From positions 1 to 47,164 of the IMG/VR virus record IMGVR_UViG_3300009024_001300: 47,164 nucleotides of DNA, one strand, 5' to 3'. The DNA comes from a virus. This document shows positions 18,831 through 45,172 of the stretch, piece by piece. Below the pieces are notes generated by a model. The model made no database searches. It worked only from the letters and a program-made list of their open reading frames with translations, and was not told the origin of the DNA. Position numbers and translations under genes: made by a program. The first letter of the stretch is position 1, and each line of letters starts with the position of its first letter.

Positions 18831-19118
18831 TTATCTTCTTCTTGTTCTAGGGGCGAAACCACCTCTCAATGATTCCAGTGTTTTCTTTCTGGCTCTTTTG
18901 GTAGCCTCTGCCTTGAGTCTTTTTCTCTTAGATGTTGGCTTTTCGTAAAATTCTCTTTTACGTATCTCCTGTACGATACCGGCCTTTTCGCATTGCTTTT
19001 TCCACTTTCTGAGTGCAATGTCAAATGGCATTGCAGTGGGCGGCCTTTTATCTTTAGGGTGTTTTTTTCTTGGTGTCAAGTCTACTGACCTACCACTGAA
19101 CTCGTTATTGTATGCCAT
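18831..19118 (-). CDS. rpsU: Ribosomal protein bS21
   Basis: A 95-residue bS21 with a short N-terminal extension. The core [17 protein letters not shown], then [17 protein letters not shown] and a Lys/Arg tail are unmistakable. bS21 joins the small ribosomal subunit near the anti-Shine-Dalgarno end of 16S rRNA, so a phage copy could bias initiation toward phage mRNA (established idea, not shown here). Phage-encoded bS21 is known in pelagic phages. Its ATG overlaps the cold-shock stop as TAATG, so the two are translated together. Confidence 0.93.
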
Positions 19119-19315
19119 TAAACAATATTAGTTGCTTGTGGACCTTTTTCGCTTTCAGCAATGTCAAACGTCACTTGTTGATTTTCTTCTAGTGATGCAT
19201 ATCCATCTGCTTTAATTGCTGAAAAGTGTGCAAACACATCCTTTCCGCCTTCATCTGGTGTGATAAATCCAAATCCTTTTGTTCCATCAAACCATTTTAC
19301 TTTTCCTGTCGCCAT
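19118..19315 (-). CDS. Cold-shock domain RNA chaperone
   Basis: A 65-residue CspA-family protein. RNP1 is KGFGFI, and RNP2 is DVFAHF with Ala where Val is usual. It begins [14 protein letters not shown] and ends QATNIV. It binds single-stranded RNA and melts secondary structure. First gene after the promoter at 19389-19417, with a leader that contains a hairpin, and coupled to bS21. Confidence 0.94.
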
Positions 19316-31705: not shown

Positions 31706-32626
31706 TTAATCCTGTACATCTTTTAAAAATTGAGAGAATACTTTCTTAACACTTGTATTCTTCTTTTTATGTTTCTTACGAGCTCCCATTGGAACTCCTG
31801 GTTCACCATCAGGTCCTACACCAAGTCCTGCAATTTGACCTCCGCCAACATTTACAGCCGGTGCATCCTCATTTCTTGCCTGCCAATCTAAACTTGTAGT
31901 GTCGTTATCAATCGGTCCACCTTTTGCCCAAGTCATGCATGTTCTAGCACTATGACATTTAAAATTGTGCATCCAACAGTAGCCTAATTGACCATCATCA
32001 TCTGATGTTTCACCTGGCATACAATCTTCCATACGAGGAGAGATATCAAAAGCAACACAGTTCGAACAATTGCTCTTCTTGGCTGCCTCTGTTGTCGTCT
32101 CCCAATGGTCTGCTATTTTATCCCAATAATCACCAGGAACACCTACATTTAAAGGACCATAACTATGATTCTTAATTGTTGCATCTCTGTTTTTAGTATT
32201 GAGTTTAATATCACCTGTTGCGGCAGGACAAGCTGCCTCATTTAGTATATCTGCATTCTGCTCTAAAAATTCATTTAAAGACAAACCTATTATATCACCA
32301 ATGTGCGACTCTGTCAACACGCCTTCTGATAATAATTTATCTGTTTTATCAAATCGTTCATTCTCTTTAATAAGCCATAGAGCTGCAGCATAAGATGCGA
32401 TACGTGTAGTACCACCTGGCAGTTTTTCTAATAATTTTTTAAGATTAAGAATGAGTTGGTCAAAAAGGCCAAAGGCTTTTTTCTGATTGTTCTTATTAAA
32501 TTCTTTACGACTAATCAGTATATTGCCTTTTTCATCAATGATACCTTCTTTATATGCAGCCCACTTTCTAAATGGCGTTACCAGCCTTTTAATAAAGCTA
32601 AATACTAAGAATAAATCTACTACCAT
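31706..32626 (-). CDS. Cysteine-rich late protein with membrane-proximal N terminus
   Basis: 306 residues. The N-terminal third carries a KLPGGTTRIASYAAALWLI block seen in marine myophage structural-region proteins. The middle has six or more cysteines (CSNCVAFD, then EDCMPG, then GYCWMHNFKCHSARTCMTW) that look able to bind iron-sulfur or zinc, similar to high-potential iron-sulfur sites. The C terminus is basic (ARKKHKKKN) and ends FSQFLKDVQD, a motif that recurs in neighbouring proteins. An internal consensus promoter lies within it. Confidence 0.8.
   Translation of the reverse strand: MVVDLFLVFSFIKRLVTPFRKWAAYKEGIIDEKGNILISRKEFNKNNQKKAFGLFDQLILNLKKLLEKLPGGTTRIASYAAALWLIKENERFDKTDKLLSEGVLTESHIGDIIGLSLNEFLEQNADILNEAACPAATGDIKLNTKNRDATIKNHSYGPLNVGVPGDYWDKIADHWETTTEAAKKSNCSNCVAFDISPRMEDCMPGETSDDDGQLGYCWMHNFKCHSARTCMTWAKGGPIDNDTTSLDWQARNEDAPAVNVGGGQIAGLGVGPDGEPGVPMGARKKHKKKNTSVKKVFSQFLKDVQD
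32289..32317 (-). promoter_or_regulatory. Intragenic sigma70-like promoter, TTGACA-17-TATAAT
   Basis: Perfect hexamers and 17-base spacer inside the 306-residue gene, about 590 bases upstream of the endolysin gene. The -10 context TGATATAATA matches that of the promoter at 29489-29517. Confidence 0.65.
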
Positions 32627-34339: not shown

Positions 34340-34347
34340 TATTTATA
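34340..34347 (-). promoter_or_regulatory. T4-type late promoter TATAAATA
   Basis: Exact box, 30 bases upstream of the 204-residue gene and overlapping the stop region of the upstream 98-residue gene. Confidence 0.7.
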
Positions 34348-34639
34348 AAACTTTAGTTATTTTTATCTTTAAATTGTTAATGCCCTTAATCAAACGATGA
34401 TACTCGTCTTTAAGTATCTTCAGCTTTGTTCCAGGTTTTAACAAATAAGGTAGAGAATTTTCAGGTTGAAACTGCCAACCATCACCTTCCAATACCTCAA
34501 TTAATCTATCTTCTTTATCTCTATGCCAGACATATTCCTTTGAATCATCTGCAACATTAAAAAGTCTAATATCACCTGAATCAATATATGGCTTACCAGA
34601 AATAAGAACCTCCTCCAGTAAGGCCAAGTTCTTTTGCAT
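34343..34639 (-). CDS. 98-residue cupin-like protein
   Basis: Starts MQKNLALLEEVLISGKPYIDSGDIRLF. The pattern YVWHRDKEDRLIEVLEGDGWQFQ ... GTKLKILKDEYHRLIKG looks like a single-domain cupin with the expected H and E positions. It overlaps the preceding gene by 47 bases. Function unknown. Confidence 0.68.
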   Translation of the reverse strand: MQKNLALLEEVLISGKPYIDSGDIRLFNVADDSKEYVWHRDKEDRLIEVLEGDGWQFQPENSLPYLLKPGTKLKILKDEYHRLIKGINNLKIKITKVL

Positions 34640-34979
34640 ATTTTGGTAATCTACATGCCCAATATCCAGGCGTTAATTTGTCTGTTTTTGTATCACAGTT
34701 GTGTCTTGCTGCAAAGGAAGCAGCTGCCCCTTTATCATTAATCTTTGAAGTCAAGCCACCTTTTTCGTCACCAAATTCTATTTTCTTAGTGTTCCCAGTT
34801 TTAGGATTTCGTACATATACAACATACTTTTTATTACCACTAGATCTTTTTGGACTATTTAATTCCGGTTCCTTTTCTGCTGCCAATAAACCCATAGAAT
34901 TATCAAATTCTACCATAGGGGTTTCAAGCGGAACAACAGTACCTTCATATAATCCAAATGATTCTGATAAAAGTTTCAC
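34593..34979 (-). CDS. 128-residue protein of DUF5872-like type, GTG start
   Basis: The C-terminal half KYVVYVRNPKTGNTKKIEFGD, then SFAARHNCDTKTD, then GYWACRLPKY matches a short family in marine myophages (positively charged, two cysteines). GTG start overlapping the upstream stop as GTGA. The N terminus MKLLSESFGLYEG is short and amphipathic. Confidence 0.74.
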   Translation of the reverse strand: MKLLSESFGLYEGTVVPLETPMVEFDNSMGLLAAEKEPELNSPKRSSGNKKYVVYVRNPKTGNTKKIEFGDEKGGLTSKINDKGAAASFAARHNCDTKTDKLTPGYWACRLPKYAKELGLTGGGSYFW

Positions 34980-35524
34980 GATATCTTTAATCCAGTATTT
35001 CCAGGGTTGTCAACATTTGGTTGTTCTTTGGCTCTATCTGCTTTTACTTGGTCATTCATATCGTCAACATTTTCTTCACCAGTTTTATCGTGGTCAAATG
35101 TATATGCCTTACCAGCGTCACCAGTTACCCATTCGCCATCCATATATCTTGGTTGGTCCTTTTGCATTGGGTAATCAGGTAATGTAAATGCTTCTTCTAA
35201 GTCTACTGTACCGTCCCATTTACCTTGTTCAATTTCTCGTATCAAGTCATAACATGCGCTTTCAACTTGTTGTAGACCTTTAAATATCTTAGATGGTCCA
35301 TCTGCACGATTGTTATATTGAAACTTTTCGTGGTCTTTGTTAATCTTCTCAATAGCCTTTAAGATCTTTTTATAACCATTAATTTCTTGTTTCCTGTTAA
35401 ACTCAGAACCTTTTCTTTCAGCAGGACTTTTACCATGGAAATTTATTCGTTCAAGAACTACTTCTGATTGGCTTTCCCTTATGGCCTGTAGTGCGTCTCT
35501 TATGGAACCTTTTGAATCTTTCAT
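34976..35524 (-). CDS. 182-residue helical late protein
   Basis: Starts MKDSKGSIRDALQAIRES, an amphipathic N terminus. Helical middle (GYKKILKAIEKINKDHEKF) and acidic, probably disordered end. Located among presumed prohead proteins. AAGGAATT upstream. Function unknown. Confidence 0.7.
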   Translation of the reverse strand: MKDSKGSIRDALQAIRESQSEVVLERINFHGKSPAERKGSEFNRKQEINGYKKILKAIEKINKDHEKFQYNNRADGPSKIFKGLQQVESACYDLIREIEQGKWDGTVDLEEAFTLPDYPMQKDQPRYMDGEWVTGDAGKAYTFDHDKTGEENVDDMNDQVKADRAKEQPNVDNPGNTGLKIS

Positions 35525-35533
35525 TATAATTCC

Positions 35534-37675
35534 TTACTTATTTACGATTTTTAAGATACGCTTTAAGCCAGCTGAATCCTTACTTATCATTGTTTGGTAT
35601 TTTTCTTTGTCCTGTGGCTTTTTCATTGCATCAAACCCACGTAAAAGAGCATCAGCTTCCTGTTTAGACAGTTTTAATTTTTTATTATTTAAGAATTCGA
35701 TTTGGCCTTTGCCATAGTCGGAAATTTTTCTTAATTGTTGAATAGGATTCTTTTTGGCAAGTTTCATATCAGCTGTTGTTGCTCTGATATCAACATCTTT
35801 AACTTGTTTAAAGTCTCTATCGTTTTTAATAGCTCTTAGTGCGTCTTCTTTAGCACCTTCGGTATATGATTTGAATGATTCTTTCTTTGCCATAGTCCTT
35901 TTATTCATATTTTGGTCTACATACTTGGCCTGTGCCTTTCTTGCGCCTTCCTCACCACCTATTTCATATCCCATAAGATATGCATTAGCATGGCCTTTGG
36001 CTGCATTTGGAGTTTTCCAAGACATACTACCAAGATACATTGTTGTACCTTTTTCCTTATGTACAACCTTACCTCTATGACCATCATTAAACTGTGATCT
36101 TTCTGAGTCTAGTTTATAATCATTTGAATCAATAGCTTCATGCATTTCTTCTGATTGTGAATGTCCTAAACGATCTGCTCTTTGTCTTGCAGTTTCACCA
36201 GATCTACCAACACCAGCTCTTTTTGCGTCTCTGTCCTTTTTAACCTGGTCATATTTCTTAATGGAATCACGAGCTGATGTATTCATGCGTTTTGCATGAG
36301 CATCATGTTGGCTTTTTGTTTTATCTCTTTGTTGTTGAGCAAGAGTTGTTTCTTCTATTGCAGTTGGTGCATGATATGATGTTTCGTTACCAATACCAAC
36401 GTGAACACGATCTTTAGTAACACCAAGAACTTTACCAGTCTTGCCATTCTTTAATTTAACTGTTGAACCTTCAGGAAATTTGGCTGACATTTGAGCAATA
36501 TCTTTACGAAGATTTTCGTCTATGGCCTCTTTTTTAGAGATTTTTTTCTGTAGCTTTTCTATATCAGCCTCTCTATTCATCTCTACTTCATTCCAATGAT
36601 CTATTCCTTTTTGATTACCGTCAGCAACTGCTTTCTTTCTTGAATCTTGAGCATCACGAAGCTTCTGTTTCGCTATTTTTAACCTAGCTCCAAGGTATGA
36701 TGGGCTGTCAAAGGCATCTCGTGCAGGATTATGCGTCTTCCTGGCTGGTGCATTACTACCAGTAACTTTAGCTTTAATCTTTCCGGCTGCCTTTTTAATA
36801 GGACTCCAAATCTCGTCAACAGACTCTTTTTTAAATGCACCCATTTTCATGCCTTTAGCATAATCTTCTGCGTCTGCATTCTTATCAAAGCCTGGCATAG
36901 AGCGTATTGCATCTATTACCCTTTTTGATATTCTTCTGTCATCAGTTTGCCAAGCAATTATTTCTTTAGCATATTTCTTTTTGACATCATCTAAAGTCAT
37001 TCCTGTTTCAGCATCACCAAGAACTTTATCTGCTTGGTTATCATCATACCCAAATCCAATATCACCTTTTGAAGTTAACCATTTCTTTATTTGCTCTCTG
37101 CTACCAGTTACGGATATTGTTCCCTCATCTTCATCATAATCATCCACGGTGACATCAAACTCATCTTGAGCGTCGGCTTCAAGGCTGTTGTCGGGTTGAC
37201 CATCAAACGGCATGGTAATGGAAATATCTTTTTCGTTAAGTGTTCCTTCGTTAACAGACTCTTTTCTATATTCGCCCATTCGTAAGCCCATAACAAAGTC
37301 ATCAAACTCATCAGGGTCGTCTGTCTTAATAGCATCTGAACCGTGATAACTAAACATGTCCATTTCGGCAGCATGTGGCAAATCACCATCGCCATCTTGG
37401 AAAGCAATAATCTCTTTTGCCCATTTCTTTTTAATGTCATCTAGACTCATATCATTTTCAGAAATACCTTCTTTACGATCGTTGTTCGCATTTTTCATCA
37501 TATCAGCTATACGAGCTAATGTATTTCTATCCCTATTAGATAATGAAGCTATTTGCTTATCCATCGCAATTTTCTTTAGCGAAGCAGCATAGGCAGCATC
37601 TGATTCTAATTGAACTGTTTGAGTTTTTTCGTTAGAGGATATTGTTCCTTCTAATATTTGTCTAAACTTTTTCAT
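35534..37675 (-). CDS. 713-residue repeat-containing late protein
   Basis: N terminus MKKFRQILEG resembles the capsid-targeting peptide of T4 internal proteins (MKTYQEFIAE). Two direct repeats of about 65 residues lie at 77-143 and 226-288, each DD(I/V)KKK(W/Y)AKEIIA(F/W)Q ... KES(V)(N/D)E. Short ESV(N/D)E, KKEAIDE and KKESFKSYTEG segments recur and could be prohead-protease sites of the LxE/IxE kind (inference). Rest is charged with no enzyme motif. It could be a scaffold, core or internal protein. Confidence 0.75.
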   Translation of the reverse strand: MKKFRQILEGTISSNEKTQTVQLESDAAYAASLKKIAMDKQIASLSNRDRNTLARIADMMKNANNDRKEGISENDMSLDDIKKKWAKEIIAFQDGDGDLPHAAEMDMFSYHGSDAIKTDDPDEFDDFVMGLRMGEYRKESVNEGTLNEKDISITMPFDGQPDNSLEADAQDEFDVTVDDYDEDEGTISVTGSREQIKKWLTSKGDIGFGYDDNQADKVLGDAETGMTLDDVKKKYAKEIIAWQTDDRRISKRVIDAIRSMPGFDKNADAEDYAKGMKMGAFKKESVDEIWSPIKKAAGKIKAKVTGSNAPARKTHNPARDAFDSPSYLGARLKIAKQKLRDAQDSRKKAVADGNQKGIDHWNEVEMNREADIEKLQKKISKKEAIDENLRKDIAQMSAKFPEGSTVKLKNGKTGKVLGVTKDRVHVGIGNETSYHAPTAIEETTLAQQQRDKTKSQHDAHAKRMNTSARDSIKKYDQVKKDRDAKRAGVGRSGETARQRADRLGHSQSEEMHEAIDSNDYKLDSERSQFNDGHRGKVVHKEKGTTMYLGSMSWKTPNAAKGHANAYLMGYEIGGEEGARKAQAKYVDQNMNKRTMAKKESFKSYTEGAKEDALRAIKNDRDFKQVKDVDIRATTADMKLAKKNPIQQLRKISDYGKGQIEFLNNKKLKLSKQEADALLRGFDAMKKPQDKEKYQTMISKDSAGLKRILKIVNK

Positions 37676-37679
37676 CCTT

Positions 37680-39128
37680 TTATTTCCCGTTTTTCTTTAT
37701 TTTTGGTTCGAATTTGGTTGTTATTATATATTTTCTATTAGGGTTAACCATTACATTCATTGTGTTCATAAAATTACGATTTAAAAGCACTGCACTAGTT
37801 CTGTTGGTTCTGTCATCTAATAAAAACTCATAGTCTTTATATTTGTTTCCATTAAATTCAAAATCTAATCTAATGGCATATCTGTCTTCTCTATAATCTT
37901 GCAAACCGCCCTTTTCAACACTTACAACCTTTCGGATAGTATTAGTCATTGTAGTTCCATGATGTGTCCAAGTAACATTTTTTCCTTTAACAGAAATGTC
38001 TGTCGCATGAATACTTGGTGACACTGAACCATTGCCTGTGTCAAACTTAGCTGTCATAGGACCAAGTGGTCCAATGTCGACCATTTCAATATACCCTACC
38101 AAAGTTGGTACAGGCCAGTGAAATAGGTCTTGTTTAAAATGTTCTATAATCTTATTTATTAATGGACGTGTTTTGTTTGCTTTGTCTTGACTACCGGCCA
38201 TTGCGGTTTCGATACCTTTTGTGCCTGGGCTGTGATTTACCTCTAATATGTAAGGAGGTTCTTTTTCACGATTCTTTGAAGGAATAAAATCAACAGCAGC
38301 CCATCTTGCATCTACAGCCTTTGCTGCCAATAGACATTGTTCTATTTCTAATTCTGTAAGTGTGACTTCGGTACCTTCAGCACCTTGTGTGATATTGGAA
38401 CGGAAATCACCTTTTGGTTTGCCTCTTGTCATTGAACCAATGATTTTACCATCAAGAACATGTACACGATAATCCTCATCCATTTCAAGGTATTCTTGAA
38501 TTAATAATGCAGTGGTTGGGTCTTGTTTTGTTATTAATTGGATAAATGATTTAAGTGCAGATTGGTCGTCAATTTTTACAACTCCAACTCCTTCTGAACC
38601 TTCGATTGTTTTCATTATGACAGGAAATTCCCTATCAAGCTGTTTAACTGCTTGTTCGATACCCTCATCTTCTTCATTAGGTATTAGTACAGTTCTAGGT
38701 TGAGTCAATCCAAATTCTTGTAAACGCAAATAAGTTAGATATTTGTCATTACACATTTCAAGTACAGCACGAGTATTACACATTGTACAACCAGCACGCT
38801 CTATCTGTGAAACTTTATCCAACCATGATTTATTATGTCTTACATTACCTCGGACTACGCAAAGTGTATTCTTACCAATAATAAAAGGCTTTTCAGATTC
38901 TCTATTAAGAACAATATAGCTCTTAAGTTTTTCGTCCCAACGAATTTGGCCTCGTTCAACCTCAAAATTAAAGAATGGAATTTTTTGTTCTAAACATTCC
39001 TTTCTTAGGTATGCTGCAGTTCTGAAATGTTCATTTTCTCCTTCTGGAGTCGACGACATAACAACAACGCGGAAATTGTCTGCGAGATCGGTTTTATCTT
39101 CTTTTAAATACGAGGAGAAGCCTTTCAT
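37680..39128 (-). CDS. RimK-type ATP-grasp ligase fused to retropepsin-like protease domain
   Basis: 482 residues. Residues about 120-335 are an ATP-grasp ligase: NDKYLTYLRLQEFGLTQP, VIMKTIEGSEGVGV, YRVHVLDGKIIGSMTRGK, and ILEVNHSPGTKGIE with metal-binding E and N. Residues about 345-470 look like the retropepsin-like domain linked to RimK: FDTGNGSVSPSIHA (DTG 363-365) and the LLNRNFM end. The N terminus MKGFSSYLKE resembles a capsid-targeting peptide. RimK adds Glu to proteins, so it might modify a capsid or host protein. The substrate is unknown, and the fusion is the notable point. Confidence 0.82.
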   Translation of the reverse strand: MKGFSSYLKEDKTDLADNFRVVVMSSTPEGENEHFRTAAYLRKECLEQKIPFFNFEVERGQIRWDEKLKSYIVLNRESEKPFIIGKNTLCVVRGNVRHNKSWLDKVSQIERAGCTMCNTRAVLEMCNDKYLTYLRLQEFGLTQPRTVLIPNEEDEGIEQAVKQLDREFPVIMKTIEGSEGVGVVKIDDQSALKSFIQLITKQDPTTALLIQEYLEMDEDYRVHVLDGKIIGSMTRGKPKGDFRSNITQGAEGTEVTLTELEIEQCLLAAKAVDARWAAVDFIPSKNREKEPPYILEVNHSPGTKGIETAMAGSQDKANKTRPLINKIIEHFKQDLFHWPVPTLVGYIEMVDIGPLGPMTAKFDTGNGSVSPSIHATDISVKGKNVTWTHHGTTMTNTIRKVVSVEKGGLQDYREDRYAIRLDFEFNGNKYKDYEFLLDDRTNRTSAVLLNRNFMNTMNVMVNPNRKYIITTKFEPKIKKNGK

Positions 39129-40106
39129 TTATTTTGTGTATCCTTTTGCGACCATCCAATTAGTCATTGAATCCATTAATTCTTCGTGTGTCATATCTGT
39201 ACCGTTAGCAGTTTTGAGTAAATTCATTAATTCCTCTGTATGCTCTTTGGTCATTCTTTCATTATATGGAAACCCTTTTAAAGGATTATCAATTTGTGAA
39301 ATGTCTAATAGTTTAGGAAATTGAGCTTGAAGGTTCTTCTGCTTTTTATAAGCAAGTTTAGCAACCTTCTCTCTAAATTCTTTTGTTCTGGCATCTATTG
39401 ATTTTTGGAAATCTTTTGTGTACTTAATTTTATCTTTTTCATTAAGGCCTTCCTTGGCAACCAATCTCCATCCGTCCTTTTTCATTTTATCAGCAGTTGT
39501 TCCATCAACCTTGCGCTGATATGTTCCCTTTTTCATAATGTATACTTCACCACCTTCTGTGTGATAACCTTTATCATCACAATGGTCACAACCCTTTCCT
39601 TCACATTTAGAACAACATTCCTTTTCAGTTGTTACTTCTAGTCCTTCTGAAACTGATTCTGCCCAACCACCACCATGGTCCTCTGCAGTTTTAAGTTTAC
39701 CCAGTTCAACGTATAAAGGTTGTAGGTCTATACCTCTGTCATAATCATCTGTTTTACTATAAGTCTTGTCAATCATAAGACCGACTTTAAATGCACTTGA
39801 GCCTTCTGCTGGAGTTGAATAAACGGGTTTCTGTTTGATTTTATTTGCTTTACAATAAGCATCAATCATTTTAACAGCTTTATTAAAGTCCTTTTCATTC
39901 TCTGGCGAAGTGATTCTATCACCTTTACCGCCTCTAAATTGAATGTAGAAGTCGACACAACGAGGATATTTTCTATCAGAATATGGTTTAAATCTTTCTA
40001 TTTTTGTTTTATTCATTTCAGTTTTCCGTTTAATATGTTGACCTGGTGTGTCGGATTGCAATTTACCTCGAGCCTTATCTGTGCCCCAATCGCCTGCTCC
40101 ACTCAT
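39129..40106 (-). CDS. 325-residue late protein with small zinc-ribbon motif
   Basis: Starts MSGAGDWGTDKARGK; the stop of the nucleotidyltransferase gene overlaps it as ATGA. Around residues 170-190 CCSKCEGKGCDHCDDKG forms a DnaJ-like CxxCxGxGC zinc motif. ESVSEG and KEGLNEKD recur as in the neighbouring 713-residue protein. The rest is basic and soluble. No family recognised. Confidence 0.72.
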   Translation of the reverse strand: MSGAGDWGTDKARGKLQSDTPGQHIKRKTEMNKTKIERFKPYSDRKYPRCVDFYIQFRGGKGDRITSPENEKDFNKAVKMIDAYCKANKIKQKPVYSTPAEGSSAFKVGLMIDKTYSKTDDYDRGIDLQPLYVELGKLKTAEDHGGGWAESVSEGLEVTTEKECCSKCEGKGCDHCDDKGYHTEGGEVYIMKKGTYQRKVDGTTADKMKKDGWRLVAKEGLNEKDKIKYTKDFQKSIDARTKEFREKVAKLAYKKQKNLQAQFPKLLDISQIDNPLKGFPYNERMTKEHTEELMNLLKTANGTDMTHEELMDSMTNWMVAKGYTK

Positions 40107-41995
40107 TGTGATTCTGTTTGTATATATGACTCTACCTTGGCTGCAAGATCCTTATCTGCCTTACCCCAAGTACCTTTTGATTTTGTTGCGAAACTATTGA
40201 CTCTAGCTAGACCCCACTGAACTGGAGTAGTTCCTGGTCTGTGACCTGTTTTCCATGCAGCAACGCCTCGGTCAAATACCTTCCTTAAAATTCCTAGTGG
40301 CATTCCTGATTTCTCAGCTTTATCCTTTAATGACTTTTCAGGGTTACCATTTTCAAAAACAAACTCTACAGCATCTGCAAGGTCTGTAACTTCCTTAACA
40401 CAATTTGGTACTTGATTTCCTTTACGGCCTTTTTTCGTACCAACCTGTTTATAACCATCCCAACAAGGATCTGATTCCTTTTTAATGTCAGCTGCTATTT
40501 GTGCTCTTTGGATATCTAATTCTTTTTGTTTTCGGTCCTCATCTCTTGCCTGAGCATACATTTTAAAACGATAATCAAAATTAACTGCCTTATCTGCTCT
40601 TAATAGTTGATGTGGTCGTTTGAGATAAGCCTTTTCATAATTGGTTTCACCAAACATTGCTTTAAACTTATTTGTATGTTTTGATGGTTTGGTTTTTGCT
40701 GTTGCATCACCAGGTGCAGGTTTATATGCCTCTGGGTCATCATCTGCCATTTTAGTTTGTTTTACAAATTGTGCATGTCTTTTGGCTGTTGTACTTTTTG
40801 AGAGTTTACCATCAGGGGAATCATCTTTATAATAACCACTCTTTGCTCTTTTATCAGCAACAGTCATTTTATCCTCTGATTGTAATCTTTGGACAAATGT
40901 AGACGATGTATATAATTGGTGGTTTGTTGATTCGTTTGCGTGAGTTAATGCTTTTTGGACCTCAGGATGTTTTGATAAATTTTTCTTTATTTTATCTATT
41001 TCCTTTTTGGCGTAATTCATATTACCAGCTAAGTCTAATGCAAGTTCGATACCCAATTTAACTTCTTGTTTCTTAGAGGCTTGTTTCGCTTTAGGGTTGG
41101 TCTTATAATATTGTGCAACCTCTCTGCCTGTAAGTTTTGATTTGCCCATTGGGGATAAAGGATCGACCTTACCATTTGCAACACGTTCAGCTAACCAAGC
41201 TTCAACCTTGGCATCCATTTCACCTTCAGCCAAATCCATACCAGTTCTTACATCATCAAATAATTGTTGAGCGATACGTTTATTATTGCCAGGAACACCT
41301 TTTGAGAATGATTTAAAATCATCATCAGCTGCTGCCTGTCTCATTTTACTAGCTGACATTCCAGAAACACCATCTGCATCTGGATCTCTATCACCAGCAG
41401 ATATTACTTCGAGAGTTTTATATGTATAATCTTTACCATTATATTTGTTAAGTAATTTATCAAACTCTCTCAGTCTATCTGAACCAACTACAACAACCAG
41501 ATTATCATAATTCTGCAATTCTTTTGCTACATCTATAATAGTTCTGGATTTTGATTTAATAATATATTTACGACCAAAGAAAGATTGCGCATATTTGAGT
41601 TTTTGGTCATACGATAGTGGATTTTTGTCGGAGTCTTGTGTTTTAGAAAGATACACAAGGGGAACTCCACCACGGTTAATAGCCTCATTAATCACTTTGT
41701 TTACAAGTTTTTCATGCCCTACAGTAGGAGGATTCATTCGGCCGAAAGCAATTACAGCTGTGTCTTTCCTTGCTTCGGAAATTGTTGGTTCAAGATCAAT
41801 ATACTGTGCACCATCAACACGGCCTTTTTCAGTCTTTTTAAGTAACGACCCTTTATTTTTCCTTTCGGAATCTTTATCCTGGTCGCCATTAATACCTTTC
41901 TTCTTTTTAGACTTAACACCTTTCGTAGGTTCTAAGTTATCTTTTTCAGAACCGGCGTCGACTTCGGTTTCGGGTCTATTTTTATCTGGATCCAT
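40103..41995 (-). CDS. Nucleotidyltransferase-like N domain fused to DUF5824
   Basis: 630 residues. After a highly charged N-terminal 75 residues comes a cytidylyltransferase-like (NMNAT-type) Rossmann domain: FGRMNPPTVGH (85-94, the TxGH form of HxGH) and SGMSASKMR (214-219), the second nucleotide motif. C terminus (about 545-625) is DUF5824: GILRKVFDRGVAAWKTGHRPGT, WGLARVNSF, KGTWGKADKDL. The middle is a long charged region. Preceded by an exact late promoter. It may be a virion enzyme or internal protein, with NMN or CTP-type substrate unknown. Confidence 0.82.
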   Translation of the reverse strand: MDPDKNRPETEVDAGSEKDNLEPTKGVKSKKKKGINGDQDKDSERKNKGSLLKKTEKGRVDGAQYIDLEPTISEARKDTAVIAFGRMNPPTVGHEKLVNKVINEAINRGGVPLVYLSKTQDSDKNPLSYDQKLKYAQSFFGRKYIIKSKSRTIIDVAKELQNYDNLVVVVGSDRLREFDKLLNKYNGKDYTYKTLEVISAGDRDPDADGVSGMSASKMRQAAADDDFKSFSKGVPGNNKRIAQQLFDDVRTGMDLAEGEMDAKVEAWLAERVANGKVDPLSPMGKSKLTGREVAQYYKTNPKAKQASKKQEVKLGIELALDLAGNMNYAKKEIDKIKKNLSKHPEVQKALTHANESTNHQLYTSSTFVQRLQSEDKMTVADKRAKSGYYKDDSPDGKLSKSTTAKRHAQFVKQTKMADDDPEAYKPAPGDATAKTKPSKHTNKFKAMFGETNYEKAYLKRPHQLLRADKAVNFDYRFKMYAQARDEDRKQKELDIQRAQIAADIKKESDPCWDGYKQVGTKKGRKGNQVPNCVKEVTDLADAVEFVFENGNPEKSLKDKAEKSGMPLGILRKVFDRGVAAWKTGHRPGTTPVQWGLARVNSFATKSKGTWGKADKDLAAKVESYIQTESQ

Positions 41996-43374: not shown

Positions 43375-44036
43375 TATTCAACTCCCTGCGAATAGTCAAC
43401 ACAATTAAATCCCATACCAGTAGAGCCCCATTTATGGTCAGCAAATACTTTATCAGGTCCATCATATCGTTTTGCACCATTAATATAAAATTGAGGAATA
43501 AAATAATGTGATGGCCAAATTGTTAATATATCTCTATATTGTGGAATAAATTGAGCTAGAAATTCATTACCAGTTGATTTATGTGGTTGTACATGTAAAT
43601 CGCCAGGTCGTAATAATCTTAATGAATCAATTAATGCTTTAACAAGTTCGTTACCTGGATTACATGCAAAAATAGGTTGTACAAAATTAGGTCTACCTTT
43701 TTCGTTTTCAAAGCATGTATATGCATGTTCTGGTGGGCTGTCAAAAAGTTCGTCTGTATTTTCTAAACAAATCATATCTGCTTCAGCGATAAACCCACCT
43801 TGTTCATATAATAATTCATAACGAATCAAATCAGAAACACCGCAGAAAGCCTTTGCTCTATAATAATGTTCAATAAGGTCCTGGTTAATCCACCGACGTT
43901 GCTTTAACATCGCGTCATCAAAAATAGAATATTCCCAATCAGGGTGCTTATCCCTCCAGGTATACATCCATTTAAGAGGAGCAGGCTTTGGCCCTATCCA
44001 TATATGACTAAGTTTCTTTTCAATGTTTATTATCAT
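43374..44036 (-). CDS. Glycosyltransferase with DXD-like site (capsule type)
   Basis: 220 residues from MIINIEKKLSHIWIG, whose ATG overlaps the glyA stop as ATGA. SHIWIGPKPAP, VSDLIRYELLYEQGGF and EADMICLENTDELF are the Gly_transf_sug (PF04488) pattern; here the DXD is EAD. It would add a sugar to a glycan. The frame to 44078 would run into glyA. Confidence 0.78.
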   Translation of the reverse strand: MIINIEKKLSHIWIGPKPAPLKWMYTWRDKHPDWEYSIFDDAMLKQRRWINQDLIEHYYRAKAFCGVSDLIRYELLYEQGGFIAEADMICLENTDELFDSPPEHAYTCFENEKGRPNFVQPIFACNPGNELVKALIDSLRLLRPGDLHVQPHKSTGNEFLAQFIPQYRDILTIWPSHYFIPQFYINGAKRYDGPDKVFADHKWGSTGMGFNCVDYSQGVE

Positions 44037-45172
44037 TTTAAAATATCCGATATCCTTTGTGCTAGGTTTGCAAACCATTCCTCGTCGTGTCCACGAGTTG
44101 TTTCTGCTGCCGTACCAATTCTGATACCACTTGTTTCCATAAAGGGACGAGGGTCATTTGGTACGCCATTTTTATTAACAGTAATACCATTATCTTCTAA
44201 TAAATCTGCTGCTTCTCTACCACTATATTTACTATTACTTAAATCCATTAAAATAATATGTGAATCTGTTCCACCTGTTTGTACTGGTATACCATTCATT
44301 AAAAATACTCTACACATTGCTTGAGCATTTATAATGACTTGTTCTGCATAATCAAAGAATTCTTTGGTATCTGCCTCAATAAAAGCTTGAGCCTTAGCTG
44401 CAATAATATTCATTAATGGACCACCTTGAGTACCTGGGAATATGCCACCATTAATCTTTTTTGTATAATCAGGATTGTTCCATAAGATAATTCCACCACG
44501 AGGTCCTCGTAATGTTTTATGAGTGGTTGAAGTCACTACATCTGCATGAGGTATTGGACTATCATAAGCTCCTCCAGCGATTAGGCCAGAATAATGAGCC
44601 ATATCAACCATAAGTAATGCACCTACTGAATCAGCAATTTCTCTAAATCGTTTCCAATTAATTTGTCTTGGATATGCACTTGCGCCAGCAATAATCATTT
44701 TAGGTTTATGAGTTTCTGCCAATAAAGCAACATTATCATAATCAATCAAACCATTTTCACCAACACCATATGTATGAGCGTCAAACCACTTTCCGGAAAT
44801 AGTAACAGGGGCGCCGTGAGTTAAATGCCCACCACTTGCTAAATCCATACCGAGAATTGTATCACCAACATTTAGGAAGGCTTTCATTACTGCAAGGTTG
44901 GCGTTAGCACCACTATGAGGCTGGACATTTGCAAAATTACAATCGTAAAGATCCTTTAATTTCTCAATGGCCAGAGTTTCAATCTCATCCATATGTTCGC
45001 AACCATTATAGTAACGACGACCTGGATAACCCTCTGCATATTTGTTTGTAAATTCCGAACCACATAATTTCATTACTGCATCAGATGCGAAATTTTCTGA
45101 CGCTATAAGTTCAATCGTTGTTTGTTGACGTTTTAATTCTTTTTGGTAAATTCTATCTATATCAATGTGCAT
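44033..45172 (-). CDS. glyA: Serine hydroxymethyltransferase
   Basis: 379 residues (bacterial enzymes about 417, so a shorter C-terminal domain). PLP lysine K219 is in TSTTHKTLRGPRGG, D190 and H193 in MVDMAHYSGL, ELIASENFAS at the start, and YAEGYPGRRYYNGCE. It converts serine and THF to glycine and methylene-THF, which would feed thymidylate synthase (ThyX, also in this window) and supply glycine for ALAS (HemA). It overlaps its upstream neighbour by 11 bases and sits in the middle of the glycan genes. Confidence 0.93.
   Translation of the reverse strand: MHIDIDRIYQKELKRQQTTIELIASENFASDAVMKLCGSEFTNKYAEGYPGRRYYNGCEHMDEIETLAIEKLKDLYDCNFANVQPHSGANANLAVMKAFLNVGDTILGMDLASGGHLTHGAPVTISGKWFDAHTYGVGENGLIDYDNVALLAETHKPKMIIAGASAYPRQINWKRFREIADSVGALLMVDMAHYSGLIAGGAYDSPIPHADVVTSTTHKTLRGPRGGIILWNNPDYTKKINGGIFPGTQGGPLMNIIAAKAQAFIEADTKEFFDYAEQVIINAQAMCRVFLMNGIPVQTGGTDSHIILMDLSNSKYSGREAADLLEDNGITVNKNGVPNDPRPFMETSGIRIGTAAETTRGHDEEWFANLAQRISDILK

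Follow-up and report, generated by a model that had tools for sequence, protein, structure and literature searches.

Do T4-like marine phages load enzymes into their heads with a short peptide like the one on the internal proteins of T4? Marine T4-like phages are very abundant, whereas most knowledge of the T4 head-targeting tag comes from coliphages. The question is raised by the virus record IMGVR_UViG_3300009024_001300 (positions 1 to 47,164, hereafter the window), a 47-kb fragment that we read as a T4-like marine phage and in which a 482-residue ATP-grasp protein begins with a peptide resembling the T4 capsid-targeting sequence (CTS). A first-pass annotation had proposed that this protein and two others are packaged in the head and injected. 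All three peptides are present: MKGFSSYLKE starts the 482-residue open reading frame (ORF), MKKFRQILEG starts a 713-residue ORF and VFSQFLKDVQD ends a 306-residue ORF. The interval given for them, 35534-39128, contains the first two; FSQFLKDVQD lies outside it. Taken over all three proteins the packaging idea is partly supported, while for the ATP-grasp protein our comparisons make it likely, with good confidence, that it is a CTS-targeted internal head protein of the T4 type.

37680..39128, minus strand: 482-residue fusion of a RimK-like ATP-grasp domain (residues 127-309) and a RimB-like retropepsin domain (PF05618, residues 344-470), with an N-terminal CTS-like peptide
39099..39128, minus strand: MKGFSSYLKE, codons 1-10, capsid-targeting-like, predicted cut after E10; evidence from conservation at positions 4, 7, 8 and 10, from the predicted local distance difference test (pLDDT) and from the T4 rules

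The N-terminal peptide of the ATP-grasp protein

In T4 IPIII, ten N-terminal residues are enough for packaging, with positions 4 and 7 serving targeting and positions 8 and 10 serving processing by gp21 (PMC9026906). The window protein has F4 and Y7 at the targeting positions and L8 and E10 at the processing positions. We scored a strict form of this pattern, [FY]xx[FYLI][ILVTY]xE near the N terminus, against chance rates from shuffled sequences or internal positions, and found one match in the 75 ORFs of the window (0.44 expected from shuffles, 0.17 from the internal rate). The tag becomes significant because [FY]xx[FYLI][ILVMT]xE is kept in 101 of the 106 ATP-grasp relatives with readable N termini, for example as FKDYITEA, FKNYLEEA, FKSFITEQ, FGSFLQEA, FSNFLSEA and FSTYLKED, and in eight of nine groups after clustering at 70%; the remaining five relatives are near-misses (FKTFLEQ, IKSFLEQ, FRNFAEA) or have an extended leader that contains LAEQ or LVEQ. 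In a non-redundant set of 11 sequences (below 90% identity; 32-88% identical), F4 and E10 are fixed, with an entropy of zero, column 7 is F or Y and column 8 is I or L, with columns 1-3, 5, 6 and 9 variable at 1.7-2.6 bits. Codons at the fixed positions differ synonymously among relatives, so selection acts on the peptide. That the conserved columns coincide with the mutationally defined T4 positions is, of all single observations, the one that speaks most strongly for the predicted tag. In the AlphaFold model, residues 1-14 have pLDDT below 50 and the fold begins at the strand formed by residues 20-25, so the tag is predicted to be separable from the folded body.

Beyond this family, the strict motif occurs 10 times in 116 ORFs of the relatives' versions of the module (0.2-0.6 expected), although the loci are related and the matches not independent, and four times in 56 ORFs of Melnitz regions (0.3-0.7 expected); T7 gave zero matches. 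Among named phages, Pelagibacter phage Mosig (Kyanoviridae) has the best relative of the ATP-grasp protein (45% identity). Over the whole Mosig genome the strict motif turns up just twice, on the ATP-grasp gene and in what is likely a chance match, so not all relatives use the tag widely. We dropped the looser form [FYIL]..[FYLI][ILVTAM].E, which showed little enrichment in most genomes.

A RimK-like and a RimB-like domain in one chain

Pfam assigns the protein a RimK domain (7.2e-29; 101.2 bits against a cutoff of 21) and a Zn_protease domain, PF05618 (4.6e-6; 27.0 bits, exactly at the cutoff of 27). Among solved structures, its sequence matches Pseudomonas RimK (7qys, E 2.4e-35) and the RimB-type structure 9g59 (E 1.8e-4), and a Foldseek search with the predicted structure returned RimK (template modelling score 0.85 on the target, E 8e-19). 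Both catalytic motifs, D363-T364-G365 and E296-V297-N298, show no variation across the ATP-grasp family. The protein thus has both the domain and the fold of RimK, together with a RimB domain match that includes the DTG. Pseudomonas RimB is a retropepsin that trims glutamates off polyglutamylated S6 and stimulates RimK (PMC11957791); given these roles and the fusion of the two domains, the phage protein appears to combine writer and eraser in one chain. It shares the ATP-grasp fold (7qys) and the DTG retropepsin domain with the Pseudomonas RimK/RimB pair, known for polyglutamylation of S6/RpsF, and differs from it in placing both predicted activities in one phage-encoded chain behind an N-terminal tag, with its candidate substrate taken from homology. 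A genome scan for a cellular origin of the fusion gave four matches, one of them a distant archaeal protein; three of the four lie on short contigs of metagenome-assembled genomes and look like misbinned phage, and we set a cellular origin aside.

Known and predicted prohead protease cut sites

A prohead protease of the gp21 family is annotated in Mosig and S-CREM2 and is likely present in Melnitz. The T4 major capsid protein reads FGSFLTE/A at the known end of its propeptide, and the equivalent capsid sites, where cuts were placed by comparison, read AFLSE/A in Mosig and Melnitz and LLTE/A in S-CREM2. Several ATP-grasp relatives read FSNFLSE/A, and therefore have the same residues before the predicted cut as capsid proteins. 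Two other proteins of the window would fit a removable leader module. The 325-residue protein starts SGAG exactly where its relatives have RDLINE/SGAG, and the Melnitz cytidylyltransferase start, MKKFSEIIE/ARGDTAV, aligns with an internal TISE/ARKDTAV of the window. The gp21-type proteases of Mosig (L031, 27731-28375) and Melnitz (L067-L072) themselves end in FKNFLEKL and FAKFLSKL; these ends resemble the CTS but carry K where the cut would fall, as might be expected if a C-terminal tag recruited gp21 to the core.

Tagged enzymes in the virions of related phages

We compared the N termini of the 52 S-CREM2 proteins detected by mass spectrometry (MS; Table 3 of PMC10665884). The regulatory and DNA-metabolism enzymes listed as virion-detected are an S-adenosylmethionine (SAM) hydrolase, an APH kinase, a cytidylyltransferase and a Cas9-like nuclease (PMC10665884), and all four are tagged, with MKDFDSFLEE, MKRFDAFLTE, MKNFSSFLTE and RFASFMAE (residues 18-24), respectively. 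ORF13 (MKDLHSFLTE) and ORF136 (MQTFSMFFSE) of the virion set are tagged as well. A broad motif picked after viewing these N termini, [FYL]xx[FYL][ILMVF]xE within the first 30 residues, matched 7 of 50 ORFs in the detected set and 4 of 159 in the undetected set (p=0.005). A baseplate protein among the detected matches is probably there by chance. N termini were also richer in the motif than internal 30-mers (p=2e-4). With the strict T4 form, the matches were 3/50 detected and 1/159 undetected ORFs (p=0.04). The S-CREM2 genes for the nuclease, ORF13, the kinase and ORF15 adjoin one another (L058, 7704-13331), and their products are all virion-detected with CTS-like leaders.

Homologues of the 630-residue cytidylyltransferase encoded in the window are virion proteins in S-SM1, S-SCSM1 and S-CREM2 (PMC10665884 for S-CREM2), and the virion-detected NMNAT of S-SCSM1 (MKSFLQFLKE) and GC190 of S-SM1 (MKKFSAFLNE) are also tagged. 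Among kinase homologues, compared without S-CRM01, whose N terminus is cut, that of S-B68 starts MKRLGRLLAE. The cyanophage NMNAT/cytidylyltransferase, SAM hydrolase and kinase, all found in virions by MS, share the tag class with the ATP-grasp protein and differ from it as enzymes. The S-CREM2 paper is silent on any N-terminal signal (PMC10665884), and in the openly licensed literature we found no paper joining the CTS with cyanophages or Kyanoviridae.

The g112 product of the Yersinia phage YerA41, a 'ribosomal protein modification protein', is homologous in both domains (30.8% identity over residues 37-464) and was found in purified phage particles by liquid chromatography-tandem mass spectrometry in 2020; this phage is large and unrelated, and g112 has no CTS-like peptide. 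The first-pass suggestion that an injected ATP-grasp enzyme would be a new kind of internal protein is narrowed by this homologue, which was already known from particles; the part that stands is the targeting peptide and a proposed mechanism, as g112 was reported with neither. Our best reading is a T4-type internal head protein with a new cargo. The first-pass proposal of T4-like targeting itself held up for the ATP-grasp protein, for which conservation at four functional CTS positions, a peptide predicted to lie outside the fold and tagged enzymes in the virions of relatives all point in the same direction.

Proposed packaging and its alternatives

We propose that F4 and Y7 of the ten-residue leader would bind the prohead core and bring the enzyme into the prohead, where a gp21-family prohead protease would cut after LKE10, so that the mature enzyme stays among the packaged DNA. 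It would enter the host together with that DNA when the phage infects and, by analogy with RimK and RimB, attach glutamates to a host protein and trim them ahead of phage gene expression, the simplest target being ribosomal protein S6 or another translation component. For the window phage, packaging is very likely; cleavage after E10 is likely, only slightly less so; injection is reasonably probable; and a host translation component as substrate is conceivable but somewhat doubtful. Like T4 IPI, IPII, IPIII and Alt, the ATP-grasp protein combines an aromatic residue at positions 4 and 7, I or L at 8 and E at 10, the common tag standing before diverse bodies; unlike them, its predicted cargo is a RimK-RimB fusion rather than a small basic protein or an ADP-ribosyltransferase, and its packaging is a prediction.

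Several points weigh against this reading. The strict motif in the window alone is not significant and may be chance, and neither gp21 nor a capsid gene was seen in the window, a 47-kb fragment. Enzymes detected in virions may be contaminants, as the authors of the S-CREM2 study remark (PMC10665884), the broad-motif p-value is optimistic because the motif was broadened after a first look, and the kinase homologues of S-N03 and MA01 show degraded motifs only. The YerA41 homologue reached particles without a CTS-like peptide. The packaging of CTS-tagged RimK-RimB fusions is a prediction from gene sequences, and their translation substrate is proposed from homology. Finally, late expression is a presumption, since the Mosig-type gene lies in the replication module.

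The alternative that survives best is that the tag does package the protein, whose role would then lie in the prohead, glutamylating or trimming core or capsid proteins, and not in the host as an injected effector. Core-associated proteins enter by the same tag, a retropepsin could act on head proteins and T4 core proteins are acidic. However, T4 CTS cargo (the internal proteins and Alt) is delivered into the cell and, unlike core head genes, the ATP-grasp gene is patchy in Kyanoviridae (none was found in S-SM1, S-CREM2 and HTVC008M; T4 also gave none), which makes a prohead role unlikely. The protein might instead be an intracellular early or middle enzyme, the virion detections in relatives being contamination. 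Mosig-type ATP-grasp genes do lie between regA and DNA polymerase, and YerA41 g112 is classed as middle-expressed, with many replication proteins also in those particles; but this explanation, which we consider quite improbable, leaves the conserved CTS unexplained, and window-type phages carry the ATP-grasp gene inside a module of virion proteins. It is least credible of all that the peptide is a part of the enzyme, such as a structural helix or partner-binding element, with a mere likeness to T4: short amphipathic N-terminal peptides are common and the window match is near chance, but the peptide is unstructured in the model, is conserved exactly at positions 4, 7, 8 and 10 with E invariant, and recurs on non-homologous module proteins and virion-detected enzymes.

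As candidate late promoters we considered TATAAATA, which lies 45 nucleotides upstream of the cytidylyltransferase gene and is kept in four relatives, and GCTAAATA, which precedes most ATP-grasp genes of the Mosig type by 40-52 nucleotides. Each appears to overlap the end of the coding sequence of the gene before it, and TATAAATA is about as frequent as base composition predicts, so we gave them little weight.

A possible wider cargo system

Extending the proposal of a packaged and injected enzyme, marine T4-like phages (Kyanoviridae and relatives) might have a general FxxFLxE cargo system, in which the tag is gained and lost between genes and loads changing enzymes, among them the RimK-RimB fusion, cytidylyltransferase, SAM hydrolase, kinase and nuclease. 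The fusion, delivered at time zero, would alter the glutamate tails of host ribosomal proteins, possibly in concert with phage bS21, and so reprogram translation before viral protein synthesis. We offer this extension tentatively and regard it as rather doubtful. If the tag itself works in marine T4-like phages, their head cargo becomes readable from sequence and there is a simple reason for the recurring NMNAT, SAM hydrolase and kinases in cyanophage virions, which the authors could not separate from contamination. A delivered RimK-RimB fusion would represent a new class of injected effector against the host ribosome. The window does encode a phage ribosomal protein bS21 (PF01165, E 4.7e-17) adjoining a cold-shock-domain gene (18831-19118 and 19118-19315, minus strand), a translation link alongside the RimK-like enzyme.

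The 713-residue and 306-residue proteins

35534..37675, minus strand: 713-residue protein of unknown function, no Pfam or PHROG match
37646..37675, minus strand: MKKFRQILEG, codons 1-10, weaker CTS-like peptide (F4, I7, L8; E at 9), compared with relatives
31706..32626, minus strand: 306-residue protein with a C-terminal peptide, PHROG 18642, function unknown
31709..31738, minus strand: FSQFLKDVQD, last ten codons, C-terminal FxxFLxD, possible uncleaved core-binding tag, from relatives and gp21 C termini

The first-pass reading is weaker for the 713-residue protein. Its leader keeps F4 and the hydrophobic residues at 7 and 8 without an E in register at position 10; the E is at position 9 in the window, at 13 (LVE13) in the relatives L037-L044 and at 10 in L045/L046. 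The leaders of relatives include MKKFRNLLTGLVES and MKRFKSLYKEAK. MKKFRQILEG is in the same register as Melnitz MKKFSEIIE/A, and because the T4 IPI leader is similarly stretched (MKTFKEF...ITE), it is plausible by analogy that this protein is head cargo. The protein contains a duplicated segment (MSLDDIKKKWAKEIIAFQ and MTLDDVKKKYAKEIIAWQ) and its relatives range from 337 to 641 residues, suggesting a modular build.

FSQFLKDVQD did not bear out as an N-terminal-type CTS, the peptide being C-terminal with D at position 10, the cleavage position. In relatives the pattern alone is retained, as LKQLLQD, LKQLLHD and FKDFAKE near their C-terminal ends. Since D at position 10 stops cutting but not targeting in T4 (PMC9026906), and in light of the gp21 ends of Mosig and Melnitz, it is possible that FSQFLKDVQD acts as a C-terminal, uncut core-binding tag.

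Gene run and neighbouring genes

The ATP-grasp gene lies in a tight gene run (34343-41995, minus strand) encoding the cytidylyltransferase (630 residues) and proteins of 325, 482, 713, 182, 128 and 98 residues. The 713-residue protein and several other products of this run are probably cargo via the same or a relaxed signal.

40103..41995, minus strand: 630-residue cytidylyltransferase/NMNAT-like protein, PHROG 3041 (2e-100)
41774..41785, minus strand: TISE directly before its catalytic domain (TISE/ARKDTAVIAF), counterpart of Melnitz MKKFSEIIE/ARGDTAVFTF
39129..40106, minus strand: 325-residue protein starting MSGAGDWGTDKA, where relatives have the predicted cut MNKRVRDLINE/SGAGLWGTDKA
34593..34979, minus strand: 128-residue protein, (M)KLLSESFGLYE/G, relatives MKRFNESFGLYEG and MRRFKDSFGIYEG

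Helicase gp41 and primase gp61/nrdA flank the cytidylyltransferase module in S-SM1, Syn9 and HTVC008M, and the window gene, too, lies upstream of gp61, td and nrdA/nrdB. A megablast search with the module gave no match among known phages. Elsewhere in the window, a nearly full-length serine hydroxymethyltransferase (44033-45172, minus strand; E 7e-144) adjoins glycosyltransferase and sulfotransferase genes, and an ORF on the opposite, plus strand (51-842) has an adenylate/guanylate cyclase catalytic domain (PF00211, E 2.9e-18).
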